Source: Haloferax denitrificans ATCC 35960
GTDB taxonomy: Archaea; Halobacteriota; Halobacteria; Halobacteriales; Haloferacaceae
Direction: 5' to 3'
DNA: 64,000 nt
NCBI RefSeq assembly: GCF_000337795.1
Contig: NZ_AOLP01000011.1
Coordinates: 186,001 to 250,000, forward strand
Shown: piece after piece, positions 14,718 to 24,037 of the stretch
How positions within the stretch are numbered: the stretch's first letter is position 1
How the letters are laid out: the number at the start of each line of letters is the position of its first letter
Translations under genes and position numbers: made by a program
The notes under the pieces: generated by a model
What the model saw: only the letters and a program-made list of their open reading frames with translations
Told to the model about the DNA's origin: nothing
Database searches by the model: none

Positions 14718-14797
14718 GGGTCCGGCGACCTATTCTTCATAGACGATAGTTACAGACTTGGGGGCGATTGAATTTCGGAACCGGGTGATTAGTATCA

Positions 14798-14811
14798 TGT
14801 AGTTTACTACA
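14798..14811. promoter_or_regulatory. palindrome upstream of sugar ABC promoter
   Basis: TGTAGTTTACTACA has perfect 6-bp arms (TGTAGT/ACTACA) around TT. It ends 25 bp upstream of the TATA box at 14837, an activator-like position. The TGTAGT core recurs in the palindrome at 14854-14866 and as CTGTAGTTAATC about 20 bp before the second dehydrogenase. Confidence 0.6.
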
Positions 14812-14836
14812 ACAGCGGTAGTGGCCAGCACCAAAA

Positions 14837-14847
14837 CTATAAATAAT
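14837..14847 (+). promoter_or_regulatory. TATA box of sugar ABC operon
   Basis: CTATAAATAAT in an AT-rich stretch about 30 bp ahead of the ATG at 14873 is the core promoter of the transporter operon. Confidence 0.75.
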
Positions 14848-14853
14848 CACTAA

Positions 14854-14866
14854 TTGTAGTGTACAA
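14854..14866. promoter_or_regulatory. operator-like palindrome at transcription start of ABC operon
   Basis: TTGTA and TACAA arms flank GTG, giving TTGTAGTGTACAA just downstream of the TATA box and 6 bp before the start codon. A protein bound here would block initiation. Confidence 0.6.
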
Positions 14867-14872
14867 ACTGTA

Positions 14873-16420
14873 ATGGTTGATGCTGACTCACGCAAGGGCA
14901 AGCGTACTGGCGTCTCTCGACGCAGTTTTGTGAAGGCGGCCGGCGCATCGGGCGTCGCCGTCGGGTTGGCCGGATGCATTAGCACCGGCGGCGGCGACAA
15001 CGGCGGCGGTAACGGCGGCACGGACGCCGACACCGACACGCCGATTAACACCGAAGAGTCCACCGAGGACATCACGCTTCAGTGGGCCGCCGACACCCGC
15101 GTCGCGGAGGCGGAAGCGGAAGTCGTGCAGGCGCTTCGGGACGCGGGCCTCCCGGAGAACATCGATATCGACATCCTCGCCGGCTCGCAGGTGACCGACA
15201 ACAGACAGGCGCAGTATCAGCAGTGGCTCTCCGGCGGTCGCTCGGAGCCGACACTGCTCATGATGGACAGCGGGTGGACGATTCCCTTCATCGCCCGCAA
15301 CCAACTGCAGAACCTCTCGCAGTCGCTCCCCTCGGAGCTGACGTCGACCATCCAAGAGGAGTACTTCGAGGCCAGCGTCTCGACGGCGACGGGGCCGAAC
15401 GGCGACCTCTACGGTCAGCCGCTGTTCCCCGACTTCCCGACGGTCCAGTACCGAAAGGACCTGCTCCGCAACGCGGGCTACACCGACGAGGACTTCTCGA
15501 CGTGGGCGACCGAGTCGATGTCGTGGGAGGACTTTTCGCGCGTCACGCGGGAGGCGCTCGACGCCAACCCCGACATCGAGAACGGCTTCACGTTCCAGGC
15601 GAACGTCTACGAGGGCCTGTCGTGCTGTGACTTCAACGAGTTCATGACCTCGTACGGCGGCGCGTACTTCGGCGGCCGCGAGAACCTGTTCGGCCCCATC
15701 GGTGACCGCCCCATCACCGTCGAAGAGGAGCCGGTCATCAACGCGATTCGGATGGTTCGGACGCTCATCCACGGCGAGGACGACGAGTACGCCCTCGACG
15801 GCATCACCGGCGGTATCTCGCCCGAGGCGGTCCTCCAGTGGACCGAAGACCCGTCCCGACAGCCCTTCACGACCGGCAACGCGGTCATGCACCGCAACTG
15901 GCCGTACTCCATCGTCATCAACGGGGCGGAGCCCTCGGAGGAGAACGACCAGACCGGCTTCGGCGAGGACCTCGGCGTCATGCCGATTCCGTACGGCGTC
16001 ACCGCCGACGAGGCCCAGTACGAGGGCACCGGCGGCCCCGTCGCCGCCCTCGGCGGCTGGCACATGACGATGAACCCGAACTCCTCGGACGCACAGAAGC
16101 AGGCCGCGGTGCAGGTGCTTCGGACGATGCAGACCGAGCAGTTCCAGCTCGACATGTTCCGCATCATCGGCTGGATTCCGCCGCGCCCGTCGCTCCTCGA
16201 ATCCGACCAGGCCGCCGAGGTGCCCATCATCGGCCGCTACCTCGACGCCCTGAAGGTCGCCGGCGAGAACGCGATTCCGCGCCCGGTCACCGTCGTCTGG
16301 CCCCAGCAGTCCGGCCGCATCTCACAGGAGGTCAACGCCGCGTTCGCCCAGGAGAAATCCCCCGAAGACGCGATGTCCGACCTCGCATCACAGCTCGAAC
16401 AGATCGAGCAGAACGCGTAG
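14873..16420 (+). CDS. sugar ABC transporter substrate-binding lipoprotein
   Basis: A 515-residue extracellular solute-binding protein (family 1 type) of a carbohydrate importer. The N-terminus has a Tat signal (SRRSFVKAAG; Arg16-Arg17) and a lipobox LAGC with Cys35, then a Gly/Asn/Asp-rich tether, so the mature protein is a lipid-anchored surface receptor. The remainder is a two-lobed binding fold of normal length. It starts a four-gene operon; the 48-bp gap to the first permease contains no T-run terminator. A TATA box and two palindromes control it. The ligand is not predictable from sequence; a sugar, polyol or glycoside is likely given the neighbouring dehydrogenase and TrmB regulator. 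Confidence 0.92.
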   Translation: MVDADSRKGKRTGVSRRSFVKAAGASGVAVGLAGCISTGGGDNGGGNGGTDADTDTPINTEESTEDITLQWAADTRVAEAEAEVVQALRDAGLPENIDIDILAGSQVTDNRQAQYQQWLSGGRSEPTLLMMDSGWTIPFIARNQLQNLSQSLPSELTSTIQEEYFEASVSTATGPNGDLYGQPLFPDFPTVQYRKDLLRNAGYTDEDFSTWATESMSWEDFSRVTREALDANPDIENGFTFQANVYEGLSCCDFNEFMTSYGGAYFGGRENLFGPIGDRPITVEEEPVINAIRMVRTLIHGEDDEYALDGITGGISPEAVLQWTEDPSRQPFTTGNAVMHRNWPYSIVINGAEPSEENDQTGFGEDLGVMPIPYGVTADEAQYEGTGGPVAALGGWHMTMNPNSSDAQKQAAVQVLRTMQTEQFQLDMFRIIGWIPPRPSLLESDQAAEVPIIGRYLDALKVAGENAIPRPVTVVWPQQSGRISQEVNAAFAQEKSPEDAMSDLASQLEQIEQNA

Positions 16421-16468
16421 AGCAACGTCTTTACCGAGACGTAACAAACATACACGTTATCATTTGAC

Positions 16469-17494
16469 ATGGCTACCGAACAACAATCAGGGGAGACATT
16501 TTCCGACACCCAGCGGAGCGGTCCGTACGCCTCGGCCGTCAACTGGATGGAGTCGCTTTCCGAGACGCAGTTCGCGTACCTGCTTTTGACGCCCGCGCTC
16601 GTCCTCTTGGGGGTAATCGCCGTCTACCCGCTGGTGTCGACGTTCAGCATGTCGCTGTTCGCCGACCAGCTGACGGGGAGCGCGCGGCTCGGCGAGTTCG
16701 TCGGACTGCAGAACTACGTGGACCTGTTCACCGGCGCGCGCAACTACGCGCTCCCGTCGCAGTTCCTCCCGACGTTCTCCTCGGAGTTCCCCTTCGTCAC
16801 GAACATCTACGCCAGCGCGCTCGCGGTGACGCTCATCTTCACCGTCTTCAGCGTGCTGTTCGAAACGCTCATCGGCTTCGGTCAGGCGCTCATCTTAGAC
16901 CAGGACTTCCGCGGGCGGCGGTGGGTCCGCGTCGCCATCATCATCCCGTGGGCCGTGCCCATCGTCATTCAGGGGATGATTTGGTACCTGATGTTCCAAC
17001 CGAACATCGGCTTCCTCGTCGGGACGAGCCAGAATCCGGCGCTGTTGAACCAACTCGGACTCATCGGCACGACGCCGCTTCGGAACACCGCCGACGCGCT
17101 GTTCCTCATCATCGTGGCCGACGTGTGGAAGACCTCGGCGTTCATGGCGCTTCTCATCCTCGCGGGGATGCAGAGCATCGACCGGTCTTTGTACGACGTG
17201 GCGAAGGTCGCCGGCGCGTCGCGCTGGCAACAGTTCAAGCTCATCACCTTCCCGCTCATCCTGCCGACGGTGCTCGTGGCGATGCTGTTCCGCACCATCG
17301 ACGCGATGCGCGTCTACGGCATCATCCAGACGATGGCCGGCTGTCAGACGGTCCCGTCGCTTTCGTGTCTCGTCGTCACGACGTTCAACACGCCGCTGTA
17401 CGGGACCTCGGCGACCGTGGCGTTCGTCACCGCCGGCATCATCGCCGTCGTGGTCTCGGTGTACATCGTGAACTTCGCCAGTGAGGGTCTCTGA
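16469..17494 (+). CDS. sugar ABC transporter permease (MalF-type)
   Basis: A 341-residue inner permease with six or seven membrane helices. The EAA loop that docks the ATPase is LYDVAKVAGASRWQQFKL (about residues 238-255). Its N-terminal soluble tail (1-30) precedes the first helix at about 35-58. It ends one base before the start of the second permease, so translation is coupled. Together they form the heterodimeric channel of the importer. Confidence 0.92.
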   Translation: MATEQQSGETFSDTQRSGPYASAVNWMESLSETQFAYLLLTPALVLLGVIAVYPLVSTFSMSLFADQLTGSARLGEFVGLQNYVDLFTGARNYALPSQFLPTFSSEFPFVTNIYASALAVTLIFTVFSVLFETLIGFGQALILDQDFRGRRWVRVAIIIPWAVPIVIQGMIWYLMFQPNIGFLVGTSQNPALLNQLGLIGTTPLRNTADALFLIIVADVWKTSAFMALLILAGMQSIDRSLYDVAKVAGASRWQQFKLITFPLILPTVLVAMLFRTIDAMRVYGIIQTMAGCQTVPSLSCLVVTTFNTPLYGTSATVAFVTAGIIAVVVSVYIVNFASEGL

Positions 17495-17495
17495 G

Positions 17496-18455
17496 ATGTC
17501 CAGCGAAACCCCGGGAGCCGGCCTCGGCTCCGACGACGACGACATGGAACGCGGGCCGCTCGGCCGTTGGGTCGACTCGGCCATCAAGAACCCCGACAGG
17601 GTCTACCGCGCGATGTTCTACGTGGCGATGCTGTTCTTCCTCGTCACGACGCTGTTCCCGTTCTACTGGCTTCTCGTGCTCGCGCTCACGCCGAACAACC
17701 TCATCGCCAACATGGGGCTCGTGCCGAAGGGGTTCAACCCCGAGGTGTTCGTCGCGATGTTCGAGCGGGTGCCGTTCCACCTGTACATGTTCAACAGCTT
17801 CGTGCTGGGCATCACGACCACCGTGCTCGTGTTGCTCATCGCCAGCCTCGCGGGGTACGTCTTCGGCCGCCTTCGCTTCCCCGGCAAGGGCGTGCTGATG
17901 CTCGGCATCCTCGCCATCAGCTACTTCCCGCCGGCGGCGTTCCTCATCCCGCTTTTCGAGCTGTTCACCGGGAACACGGCGATTAGCATCGGGATGGTGA
18001 CGATATCGACGCCGGACCTGTTCAACACGCCGGCACCGATGGTGTTCCCGTTCAGCGCGCTGTTCCTGCCGCTGTCGATATTCATCCTCACGACCTTCTA
18101 CGGGCAGATTCCCGACGGGTTGGAGGACGCGGCGCGGGTGGAGGGAACGACCCGACTTGGCGCGCTGTTCCGCGTCATCGTGCCGCTTTCGGCACCCGGC
18201 GTGGCGACCGCGGGCGTGCTCACGTTCATCAGCGTCTACAACGAGTTCTTCTTCTCGTTCCTGATGAACAACGGCGAGGCCGACTCGTGGGCCCCCATCG
18301 TCGCGGGTATCCTGAAGTATCAGGGGCAGTTCGACACCCCGTACAACCTGATGGCCGCCGCCTCCATCGTGGGGGTCTTACCCGTGGCTATCCTTGTCAT
18401 CATCGCGCAGGAACGCATCGTGAGTGGACTGACCGCAGGAGCGCTGAAGGAGTAA
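17496..18455 (+). CDS. sugar ABC transporter permease (MalG-type)
   Basis: A 319-residue permease and partner of the preceding MalF-type subunit. The EAA motif is LEDAARVEGTTRLGALFR near residue 208, followed by the usual PLSAPGVATAG. It has an N-terminal cytoplasmic tail rich in Asp, then six helices. The ATG at 17496 lies one base after the previous stop; the longer open frame from 17481 would overlap it. Only 2 bp separate it from the ATPase gene. Confidence 0.92.
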   Translation: MSSETPGAGLGSDDDDMERGPLGRWVDSAIKNPDRVYRAMFYVAMLFFLVTTLFPFYWLLVLALTPNNLIANMGLVPKGFNPEVFVAMFERVPFHLYMFNSFVLGITTTVLVLLIASLAGYVFGRLRFPGKGVLMLGILAISYFPPAAFLIPLFELFTGNTAISIGMVTISTPDLFNTPAPMVFPFSALFLPLSIFILTTFYGQIPDGLEDAARVEGTTRLGALFRVIVPLSAPGVATAGVLTFISVYNEFFFSFLMNNGEADSWAPIVAGILKYQGQFDTPYNLMAAASIVGVLPVAILVIIAQERIVSGLTAGALKE

Positions 18456-18457
18456 TC

Positions 18458-19645
18458 ATGGGAGACGTAACACTCGAACACGTAAGCAAGCACTACGACG
18501 ACGTAACGGCGGTCGACGACATGAACCTCGACATCGACGACGGAGAATTCATCTGTCTCGTCGGTCCGTCGGGGTGCGGCAAGTCGACGACCATGGAGAT
18601 GATAGCGGGCCTCACCATCCCCTCGGAGGGGAAGGTGTTCATCGGCGACCGCGAGGTGACGAACCTCCCGCCGAAGGACCGCGGGGTGGCGATGGTGTTC
18701 CAGAACATCGCGCTGTTCCCCCACATGGACGTCTACGACAACATCTCCTTCGGCCTCCGCCTCCGCAACTACGACAAGGAGGAAATCGAGCGCCGCGTCG
18801 AGCGCGCCGCCGAAATCGTCCAGTTGCAGGGGATGCTCGAACGCATGCCCGACGAGATGTCCGGCGGCCAGCGACAGCGCGTCGCCATCGCCCGCGCCAT
18901 CGTCCGCAACCCCGGCGTCTTCCTGATGGACGAGCCGCTGGCGAACCTCGACGCGAAGCTCCGGGTCCACATGCGGACCGAACTCCAGCGCCTGCACAAG
19001 GAACTGGACACGACCATCATCTACGTCACCCACGACCAGGCGGAGGCGATGACGATGTCCGACCGCATCGCGGTCATCGACTCCGGCCAACTCCAGCAGA
19101 TAGACCCGCCGCTCGTCTGTTACAACGAGCCCGCGAACCTGTTCGTCGCCGGCTTCATCGGCTCGCCCTCGATGAACTTCCTCGACGGCGAAGTCACCGA
19201 AAACGGCTTCGTCTCGACCAACATCGACGTGGAGTTCGACCCCGCCGACCTCGGCGTCGAGCCGGGGGCGGACGTCACGATGGGCATCCGCCCCGAAGAC
19301 GTGTACCTCGTCGGCGACGAGGCGCTCGTGTCGAACCCCAGCCGCCGCATCGACGCCGTCACGGACGTGCTCGAACCGATGGGCGACGAGATATTCGTCT
19401 ACCTGAAGCTCGCGGAGACGACCGAGACGGACCTCGAAGACACCAGCGGCGTCGCCAACGACCAACTGCTGATGAGCGTCGCCCCCGACACCGACATCGA
19501 GGAAGACGAGGACGTGACGGTCCTGCTCGACCGCTCGCGCGTCCACCTCTTCGACACGGAGACGGGCGAGGCCATCAGCCACGGCATCGAGACGACCGTC
19601 CAGACGAGCGGCGCGCCCGGCACGGAAGCCGAAAGCGACGACTGA
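18458..19645 (+). CDS. sugar ABC transporter ATP-binding protein (MalK/UgpC-type)
   Basis: A 395-residue ATPase energising the importer. Walker A GPSGCGKST is at 36-44, the Q-loop FQN at 81-83, the signature MSGGQRQR at 134-141, Walker B VFLMDEP at 154-160 and the H-loop His192 in THDQAEA. Residues after about 240 form the regulatory TOBE/OB domain typical of carbohydrate-type (CUT1) transporters, with a charged insert around 325-355. The start follows the permease stop by 2 bp (18458); the longer upstream frame lies inside the permease gene. Confidence 0.94.
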   Translation: MGDVTLEHVSKHYDDVTAVDDMNLDIDDGEFICLVGPSGCGKSTTMEMIAGLTIPSEGKVFIGDREVTNLPPKDRGVAMVFQNIALFPHMDVYDNISFGLRLRNYDKEEIERRVERAAEIVQLQGMLERMPDEMSGGQRQRVAIARAIVRNPGVFLMDEPLANLDAKLRVHMRTELQRLHKELDTTIIYVTHDQAEAMTMSDRIAVIDSGQLQQIDPPLVCYNEPANLFVAGFIGSPSMNFLDGEVTENGFVSTNIDVEFDPADLGVEPGADVTMGIRPEDVYLVGDEALVSNPSRRIDAVTDVLEPMGDEIFVYLKLAETTETDLEDTSGVANDQLLMSVAPDTDIEEDEDVTVLLDRSRVHLFDTETGEAISHGIETTVQTSGAPGTEAESDD

Positions 19646-22105: not shown

Positions 22106-23167
22106 TCAGACGATTTCGTCGCGGTTCGGAACCTCGTCGCGGCCGAGCAGAATCTCCTGTCCTTCCACGTCTTCGAGCGCGGCGACCAGCCCGCCGACCT
22201 CGACGACGCCCTCCTCGGTATCGATGTGGAGCGACGCGACCTCCTCCGTGTCCTCGAAGGCCGTCTCGATGACGCGTCCCTCGACCACGATGGGGTCGCC
22301 CGTCTCGATGTCGCGGCCGGAGACGGAGGCGTAGAAGTCGCCGTCTATCTCGCGGATGTCCTTGACGGCCCGGCGGATAGAGGCGTAGCGGCGGGGGAAC
22401 GGCCGGCGCTTGCCGTTGGCGACGATGGTCTCGGCGGTGCTCCAGAGGACGGTCCCGAAGAAGCCGCTGACGAGGAAGCCGAGCGCGGAGCGGTTGAAGA
22501 TGACGCCGTAGCGGTCGCGGTCGTCGCGGAGGGCGTCCTGCGTCGCGTAGATGGAGTACTCGCCGTCGGCGACCGCGAGGACGGGCGAGGTGATGCCGCG
22601 GCGGGCGCGGGCGATGGTCGCCACGTCGAGGTAGTTGAACTCCTCGGGGTCGGGCGCGCGGGAGGCGGGCGTGACGAGCAGGTCGATGCTGACGCCGCTG
22701 TCGATGGCCGCCGCGAGGTCGTCGCGGAAGCGACGGAGCAGGTCGGGCGTCAGCGAGAGCACGAGTTCGTACTCGGCGGCCTCGATGATTTCCTCGATGT
22801 AGCGGAGGATGGTCGACCGCGACTTGACGAGCGAGACGGCCTCGGTGTCGCGGGCGGGGGCGGTGTAGCGCGCCTCCAGTTCCTCGATGAGCTCCTCAAG
22901 CGAGGTCTTGACGTTCGCGAAGGCGTCGTCGGGGTCGACGGCGACGATTTTCATCGGGCGCGACTCGCGGAGCTCGACGAGGCCGCGGTCCGACAGGCTC
23001 CGGACCGTGTCGTACACCCGCGGCTGGGGGATGCTGGTTCGGTCGGCGATTTCGCTCGCCGTCAACTGTCCGTGTTCGAGGACGGCCAGATACGCGTCTA
23101 TCTCGTACTCGCCGAGGTTGAAGCGCTCACCGACTCGCTCCATGGTGAGCCGCAGTTCGTCAGCCAT
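22106..23167 (-). CDS. trmB: TrmB-family sugar-responsive transcriptional regulator
   Basis: A 353-residue regulator. Residues 10-75 form the TrmB winged helix ([41 protein letters not shown], here split for reading), followed by a short coil and the C-terminal sugar-binding TrmB domain. In haloarchaea, TrmB homologues repress or activate glycolytic and gluconeogenic genes according to glucose. The gene lies next to the ABC importer and dehydrogenase. Its promoter holds TACT-N7-GAGTA, the published Halobacterium TrmB site, so autoregulation is likely. ATG 23167 is chosen because the longer frame would include the promoter. Confidence 0.9.
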
Positions 23168-23200
23168 AGTCGTGACGTGTACGGCATCACCTAAATCATT

Positions 23201-23216
23201 TACTGAAATCCGAGTA
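23201..23216. promoter_or_regulatory. TrmB-type operator TACT-N7-GAGTA
   Basis: TACT at 23201-23204 and GAGTA at 23212-23216 are spaced by seven bases, matching the TACT-N7/8-GAGTA consensus known for haloarchaeal TrmB. It ends 34 bp upstream of the trmB start and abuts the AT-rich core promoter (AGTAAATGATTTAG on the minus strand), as expected for autoregulation. Confidence 0.7.
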
Positions 23217-23296
23217 GCACGAAATTCCGAAAACAAGTGGCACAACAGACAGCAGGCCGTCGGTCGACCGTCGCGGGACGGCGGACGGGTCGGCAC

Positions 23297-24037
23297 TCAC
23301 ATGTACATCCGGTCTTCCGGGAGGTCGGCCTCGCTGTCGTGGAGTCGCTCTGCGAGTTCGGCGTAGTACTGCTGGACCTCGGCCGCGAATGACTCCAGCG
23401 GCGAGGAGTCGACGCCGAGGTCGTACACCTCGTTGGCGGCGTCGACGAGGCGGATGGCCGCCTCCACGTCGGGGACCTGCGCGTGGACGGGCGTGACGTA
23501 GACGCCGACGCCGAGGGGCGAGCCGATGCCGCGTTCGACGAGCGCCGCGTTGGTGCCGTCGAAGAACCCCCGTCCCATCGGCGTGATGTCGCTGTCGGCG
23601 AGTCGCGCCTCGCGGTAGTCGTCGGTGGCGATGTAGAACACGCGGTGTTCGTCGGGGCCGTGGGCCATCGGAATCCCCGAGAGGACGGCGAGCTCCTCGA
23701 CCTGATTTCGTTCGGTCCAGTCGAGGATGGCGTTTCCGAACTGCGTGCCGTGGACCGAGGGGACGAACAGTTCGCCGACGAGCACGGTCACGTCGAGGTC
23801 CTCGCGGGAGAACAGCCGCGTGTGGTGTCGGGGGCGACCGTCCTCGAAGGGCGTCACCGCCGGGAGCCCCTCGACGGTGAGGTGGCCGGTCTGTTCGAGG
23901 CCGAGGTGGTCGACGATGAAGTCGACGGCGGTGAGTCCGGCGAGTCCGAACGACGAGAAGCCGCAGAGGAGCGCTCGGCTCGGGGCGGTGTCGTGTGTAA
24001 TCCGGAAGTCGGGACGGGTGGGCGTCGCGTTGGCCAT
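23297..24037 (-). CDS. PAC2-family protein (proteasome assembly chaperone-like)
   Basis: A 246-residue member of the PAC2 / archaeal PbaB-like family. The core includes RALLCGFSSFGLAGLTAVDFIVD near the N-terminus and ELAVLSGIPMAHGPDEHRVFYI in the middle, both typical. Related proteins chaperone proteasome alpha-ring assembly or act as proteasome-binding factors, and several haloarchaeal paralogues have no known role. The start ATG 24037 was chosen over the longer frame (24061). It precedes trmB on the same strand with a 129-bp gap containing the trmB promoter. Confidence 0.85.
   Translation of the reverse strand: MANATPTRPDFRITHDTAPSRALLCGFSSFGLAGLTAVDFIVDHLGLEQTGHLTVEGLPAVTPFEDGRPRHHTRLFSREDLDVTVLVGELFVPSVHGTQFGNAILDWTERNQVEELAVLSGIPMAHGPDEHRVFYIATDDYREARLADSDITPMGRGFFDGTNAALVERGIGSPLGVGVYVTPVHAQVPDVEAAIRLVDAANEVYDLGVDSSPLESFAAEVQQYYAELAERLHDSEADLPEDRMYM

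Follow-up and report, generated by a model that had tools for sequence, protein, structure and literature searches.

The trmB promoter of Haloferax carries a conserved TrmB-type operator with an uneven distribution among haloarchaea

The window analyzed here, a whole 64-kb stretch of DNA from Haloferax denitrificans ATCC 35960, contains trmB, and the trmB promoter is located in the 129-nt gap between this gene and a PAC2-family gene (Table 1). The trmB product scored 593 bits against the haloarchaeal TrmB equivalog NF047392 (cut-off 500) and contains PF11495 (7.8e-73) and PF01978 (9.2e-22), which correspond to the composition of a haloarchaeal TrmB protein with HTH and sugar domains. It is 100% identical to the TrmB of the nearest named relative, H. 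sulfurifontis.

In the gap, just upstream of a TATA-like TTTA, lies a TrmB-type operator, TACTGAAATCCGAGTA, which reads TACTCGGATTTCAGTA on the trmB strand and sits inside a wider conserved block, GTGCTACTCG-N6-AGTAAA. The preliminary description had placed the operator ahead of the TATA region, and its letters and coordinates proved exact; the agreement with the published TACT-N7-8-GAGTA motif that it had also claimed was confirmed with zero mismatches against the motif as given in the available parts of the sources (PMC4158304, PMC3794607). The operator is placed in a promoter at a functional distance, -49..-34 from the ATG, with the TTTA at -28..-25. The interval from -28 to -25 is the usual place of the TATA box in leaderless haloarchaeal transcripts, and from the position of the TTTA we infer that the trmB transcript would be leaderless.

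Table 1. Features of the trmB locus and sister sites at other Haloferax genes (signed positions are relative to the start codon)
Feature	Position	Strand	Remarks
trmB	22106..23167	(-)	353 aa, haloarchaeal sugar-sensing TrmB (HTH + Regulator_TrmB domain); ATG at 23167, end 22106
TATA-like TTTA	23192..23195	(-)	-28..-25; aligned columns +20..+23 AT-rich
TrmB-type operator	23201..23216	(-)	-49..-34
Second conserved palindrome, AC-N4-TTYCGRAA-N4-GT	23219..23238	(.)	abuts operator
PAC2-family gene	23297..24037	(-)	upstream of trmB
ppsA site	-83..-68		13/13 Haloferax loci
gapII site	about -73..-58		14/14 Haloferax loci
pyk site	-56..-41		9/10 Haloferax loci
gad site	-27..-12		13/13 Haloferax loci
ppc (PF00311) site	-18..-3		13/14 Haloferax loci
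gapI site	-9..+6, over start codon		9/9 located Haloferax loci

Within the window, TACT-N7-GAGTA occurred without a mismatch at this place only, and when one mismatch was allowed, eight matches were found, compared with 2.35 on average over 100 shuffled sequences; three of the shuffles reached eight. Genome-wide, the exact motif gave 9 matches versus 8 for the reversed control, that is, no excess, and the one-mismatch motif gave 369 versus 403. With the motif about as frequent as its reversed control, a lone exact match is little proof; on this point the preliminary description is not borne out as worded, and in this genome an excess of exact matches was discarded as functional proof. Summed over 13 Haloferax genomes, the exact motif gave 179 matches versus 109 in the control, with palindromic sites counted on both strands.

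To describe conservation ahead of trmB, a relaxed operator, ACTC-N7-[AG][AGT]TA, was sought in the last 120 nt upstream of the gene in two sets of loci, one of 80 and one of 126 from 125 genomes picked to cover genera (TrmB matches were obtained in 207 of the 242 genomes searched, and upstream DNA was taken from these 125). The relaxed operator was present in 156 of 206 haloarchaeal loci (76/80 and 80/126), rows that do not represent independent events since both sets overlap in species and the rows are related. Its start was always at -47 to -52, and the number expected by chance was 0.0096 per region under a first-order Markov model of the same regions. The strict motif was found in 60/206 loci (31/80 and 29/126), with a chance of 0.0007 per region under the Markov model. 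Clustering the 156 operator-bearing rows, 139 of them distinct, at 75% identity over 90 nt gave 95 clusters, and in the aligned promoters the operator columns were near-invariant amid random flanks. While ACTC and the final TA were fixed in this alignment through the selection of rows, conserved columns outside the selection included GT ahead of ACTC, G behind ACTC, and AA behind TA. As a positioned, conserved element, the trmB operator is far beyond chance. Two loci of the first set lacking the relaxed form (L056 and L061) have a near form with an AGTG end, and two loci of one genus (L165 and L220; f1 g7) have a different palindrome, shifted to -64/-61.

The operator is real and ordinary in kind, and its distribution is informative. 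With families labeled f and genus groups g, the relaxed site occurred in most genera sampled of f1, the family of the window, and of f4, and elsewhere in f6 g29 (3/3 loci), f7 (3/4), f9 (2/2), and f10 (1/1). It was rare or missing in f3 (2/27), f2 (0/8), and f8 (0/3). None of the six loci of the Haloarcula group (f3 g26), including Har. hispanica ATCC 33960 (L144), and none of the five trmB loci of the Halobacterium group (f2 g23), among which H. salinarum was not identified, had the site, unlike Haloferax; the site is thus not a feature shared with the Halobacterium group. The Haloarcula group was recognized by genome G084, a 12-kb segment of which has 100% identity to a Har. hispanica ATCC 33960 plasmid, and the Halobacterium group by genome G067, for which a 100% match to a plasmid of Halobacterium hubeiense was obtained. 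Among the sequences sampled, the operator is missing from Halobacterium and Haloarcula, the genera on which most TrmB work has been done, yet it recurs in most related genera. A TrmB search at E 1e-60 gave no match in three f1 g4 genomes (G017, G061, and G098) or in two f2 g23 genomes (G003 and G012), and some haloarchaea seem to lack trmB or to carry a highly diverged copy.

According to the available part of the Har. hispanica study, which does not report trmB as autoregulated, TrmB shows no autoregulation in vivo (PMC10817205), and the lack of a trmB site in the Har. hispanica locus fits this. The same source states that Hbt. TrmB binds near its own gene (PMC10817205), for which the Halobacterium sequences examined give no explanation. 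Mapped onto a tree built from 62 TrmB proteins, taken from loci with the whole gene and picked to cover genera, the operator trait required 5 state changes; shuffled labels required 21 on average. The Halobacterium-group rows were placed among operator-bearing rows and the tree suggests operator loss in that group, with the limit that gain and loss are indistinguishable on a tree that is unrooted and quick.

The 13 residues of the recognition helix are identical in the TrmB of the window and in four Halobacterium-group and Haloarcula sequences, which makes a single DNA specificity for Haloferax, Halobacterium, and Haloarcula reasonable. Sister sites were sought at other Haloferax genes as ACTC-N6-GAGT or a near form (chance about 0.01 per gene), the genes being assigned by family search or sequence pattern (gapI and pyk through pattern only). 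Starts were not located for 3/23 gapII, 8/26 gad, 4/20 ppc, 3/12 gapI, and 2/15 fbp loci. A search ahead of the gapII, pyruvate kinase, and PEP synthase genes had been suggested in the preliminary description, and sites were found at all three in Haloferax (Table 1), differing from the strict motif by one or two mismatches. Together with the identical helix, these sites bear out its claim of a conserved DNA specificity. Targets of H. salinarum TrmB are of the same kind: ppsA, gapII, and pyk. Beyond Haloferax, the palindrome form was seen at ppsA (L269, L271, and L275), gapII (L249 and L250), and gad (L335 and L337).

The gad gene encodes a mandelate-racemase family protein (PF02746), which we take from its sequence to be a gluconate dehydratase. 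In this genome it is represented by two nearly identical pieces at contig ends (G000:C18:242224-242778 and G000:C8:1-549; L322 and L342) with different upstream DNA, which stem either from a recent duplication or from a break in the assembly. The ppc gene of this genome has a perfect palindrome, TACTCGAATACGAGTA, at G000:C11:279945-279960 (L293 and L416), approximately 71 kb from trmB and outside the window, and ppc is likely a TrmB-repressed anaplerotic gene, as predicted from this site. The gapI site, TACTCGAACATGAGT, has the start codon within its spacer (L291, L439-L445, and L447), and its conservation proves less because half of the site is also coding; the same TACTCGAACATGAGT stands ahead of another gene in three Haloferax genomes (L436-L438). 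We rejected fbp as a Haloferax TrmB target, since none of the 13 loci (of 15) with a located start had a site, whereas fbp is bound by TrmB in Har. hispanica and is given in the available text as a target common to Hbt. and Har. (PMC10817205).

Likeness to known systems extends to the operator itself. In the parts of the sources available, TrmB operators of H. salinarum (VNG1451C), TACT-N7-8-GAGTA, have a core and spacing like those found here, and the Halobacterium-group regulators have the same recognition helix; the Har. hispanica regulon is likewise described with a 19-bp partly palindromic motif, a position rule, and similar gapII and ppsA sites (PMC10817205). Operators of Thermococcales TrmB, TrmBL1, and Tgr mediate activation or repression depending on position, as proposed here, autoregulation has been proposed for Tgr, and the TrmB operator has a TACT half-site like the haloarchaeal one, although the Thermococcales operators differ in spacing or sequence (TACT-N3-AGTA and TATCAC-N5-GTGATA), as far as that source is available (PMC4158304).

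We consider it probable that the site is an operator for the TrmB encoded by the adjacent gene and gives negative autoregulation, with TrmB binding and the glucose response predicted from sequence comparison. The autoregulation foreseen in the preliminary description is well supported through conservation and stays at the level of a prediction. In the absence of glucose, TrmB would sit on its own operator, and because the downstream half of the operator touches the expected BRE beside the TATA box, bound TrmB would block TBP/TFB loading and limit its own synthesis. Upon addition of glucose, TrmB would be released and trmB would be transcribed more freely. The same TrmB would activate ppsA and gapII when bound well upstream of the TATA box, and repress gad, ppc, and gapI when bound over the TATA/start region. 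In the available parts of published work, a motif overlapping the BRE leads to repression and an upstream motif to activation (PMC10817205, PMC4158304). Applied to glucose-free conditions, this rule predicts that TrmB represses trmB, gad, ppc, and gapI and activates ppsA and gapII. Such a division would fit metabolic sense, with pyk intermediate. Against it counts the pyk site, which lies upstream of the BRE though Hbt. TrmB represses pyk, and the rule has a published exception, HAH_0188, in the portion of the source at hand (PMC10817205). The missing fbp sites in Haloferax, the lack of a genomic excess of exact matches, and the partly coding gapI site likewise weigh against the reading as a whole.

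Repression rather than activation is the sign at trmB that we favor, with some reserve. An operator upstream of the TATA box occupies what the available literature gives as the general activation place for TrmB-family proteins, and TrmB bound just upstream of the BRE/TATA could recruit basal factors and activate trmB. We regard such positive autoregulation as unlikely, since the operator ends at -34 and touches the BRE, unlike the ppsA and gapII sites, and motifs overlapping the BRE belong to repressed genes in the available part of the Har. hispanica study (PMC10817205).

A second conserved palindrome (AC-N4-TTTCGAAA-N4-GT) lies directly upstream of the operator, and its GT is common to the GTGC preceding TACTC. 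In the aligned promoters, strong and symmetric conservation is seen at its columns A, C, TT, CG, AA, and GT. The core form was found in 80/156 operator-bearing promoters versus 3/50 others, and 79 times it lay at one and the same distance, 17 nt. The complete palindrome occurs at three places in this genome, at trmB and at two places inside reading frames, so the case for it rests on conservation at trmB. TTYCGRAA-N4-GTG exceeded its reversed control 18 to 1 genome-wide; this excess was rejected as a sign of a widespread second operator, since most places are within genes. Several of them fall in a common stretch of long coding frames, which we presume to be the histidine-kinase N box. This TTTCGGAAYGCNGTGGAACACGG-like stretch is repeated within such frames (L357, L362, L368, and L370), and its recurrence inflates the counts for the motif. 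The palindrome was also set aside as a BRE for another promoter, as there is no TATA-like sequence behind it.

The adjoining palindrome counts in favor of a rival reading, in which the conserved block would belong to another regulator with a similar palindrome, such as a TrmB paralogue, TbsP, or GfcR, instead of TrmB. Hackley et al. (in Mol Microbiol, 2024) are said to have described TrmB and TbsP in Haloferax volcanii, the same genus and regulator, with gapII reportedly under their joint control. Moreover, GfcR is reported, in the part of the source available, as an activator of gapI and pyk in H. volcanii, both of which bear sites here (PMC11519228). We nevertheless judge this reading quite improbable: the sequence is that of the published TrmB motif, the helix of the adjacent TrmB is the same as in Halobacterium-group and Haloarcula TrmB, and Har. 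hispanica TrmB binds ppsA and gapII according to the available text (PMC10817205). A chance match in conserved promoter DNA, with no regulatory role, would agree with the lack of genome-wide excess of the exact motif and is scarcely credible given the site at one position in most of the loci and the near-invariant columns across the 95 clusters.

If TrmB is the owner of the operator, the second palindrome points to a further factor at the trmB promoter. We tentatively suggest, with more doubt than belief, a two-input switch in which TrmB represses itself and a second regulator acts on the abutting palindrome at a fixed spacing, an arrangement kept in most haloarchaeal families that Halobacterium and Haloarcula would have lost or replaced; if so, the wiring in these two studied lineages would differ from that in most of the class. 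The operator distribution also offers a testable account of the disagreeing reports on TrmB autoregulation, as most sampled haloarchaea have the site and Haloarcula hispanica is without it. Furthermore, the sister sites provide a position-coded list of predicted Haloferax TrmB targets: trmB, ppsA, gapII, pyk, gad, ppc, and gapI. In the literature, as far as available, we found no account of the trmB operator across genera; the H. volcanii TrmB paper was outside this comparison, so these results may be partly published.

In the promoter of the sugar ABC transporter operon of the window (14873-19645), there was no exact operator within 14718-14872. The ABC transporter gene at 14873 is preceded there by half of the second palindrome, TTTCGGAACCGGGTG, at 14773-14787.
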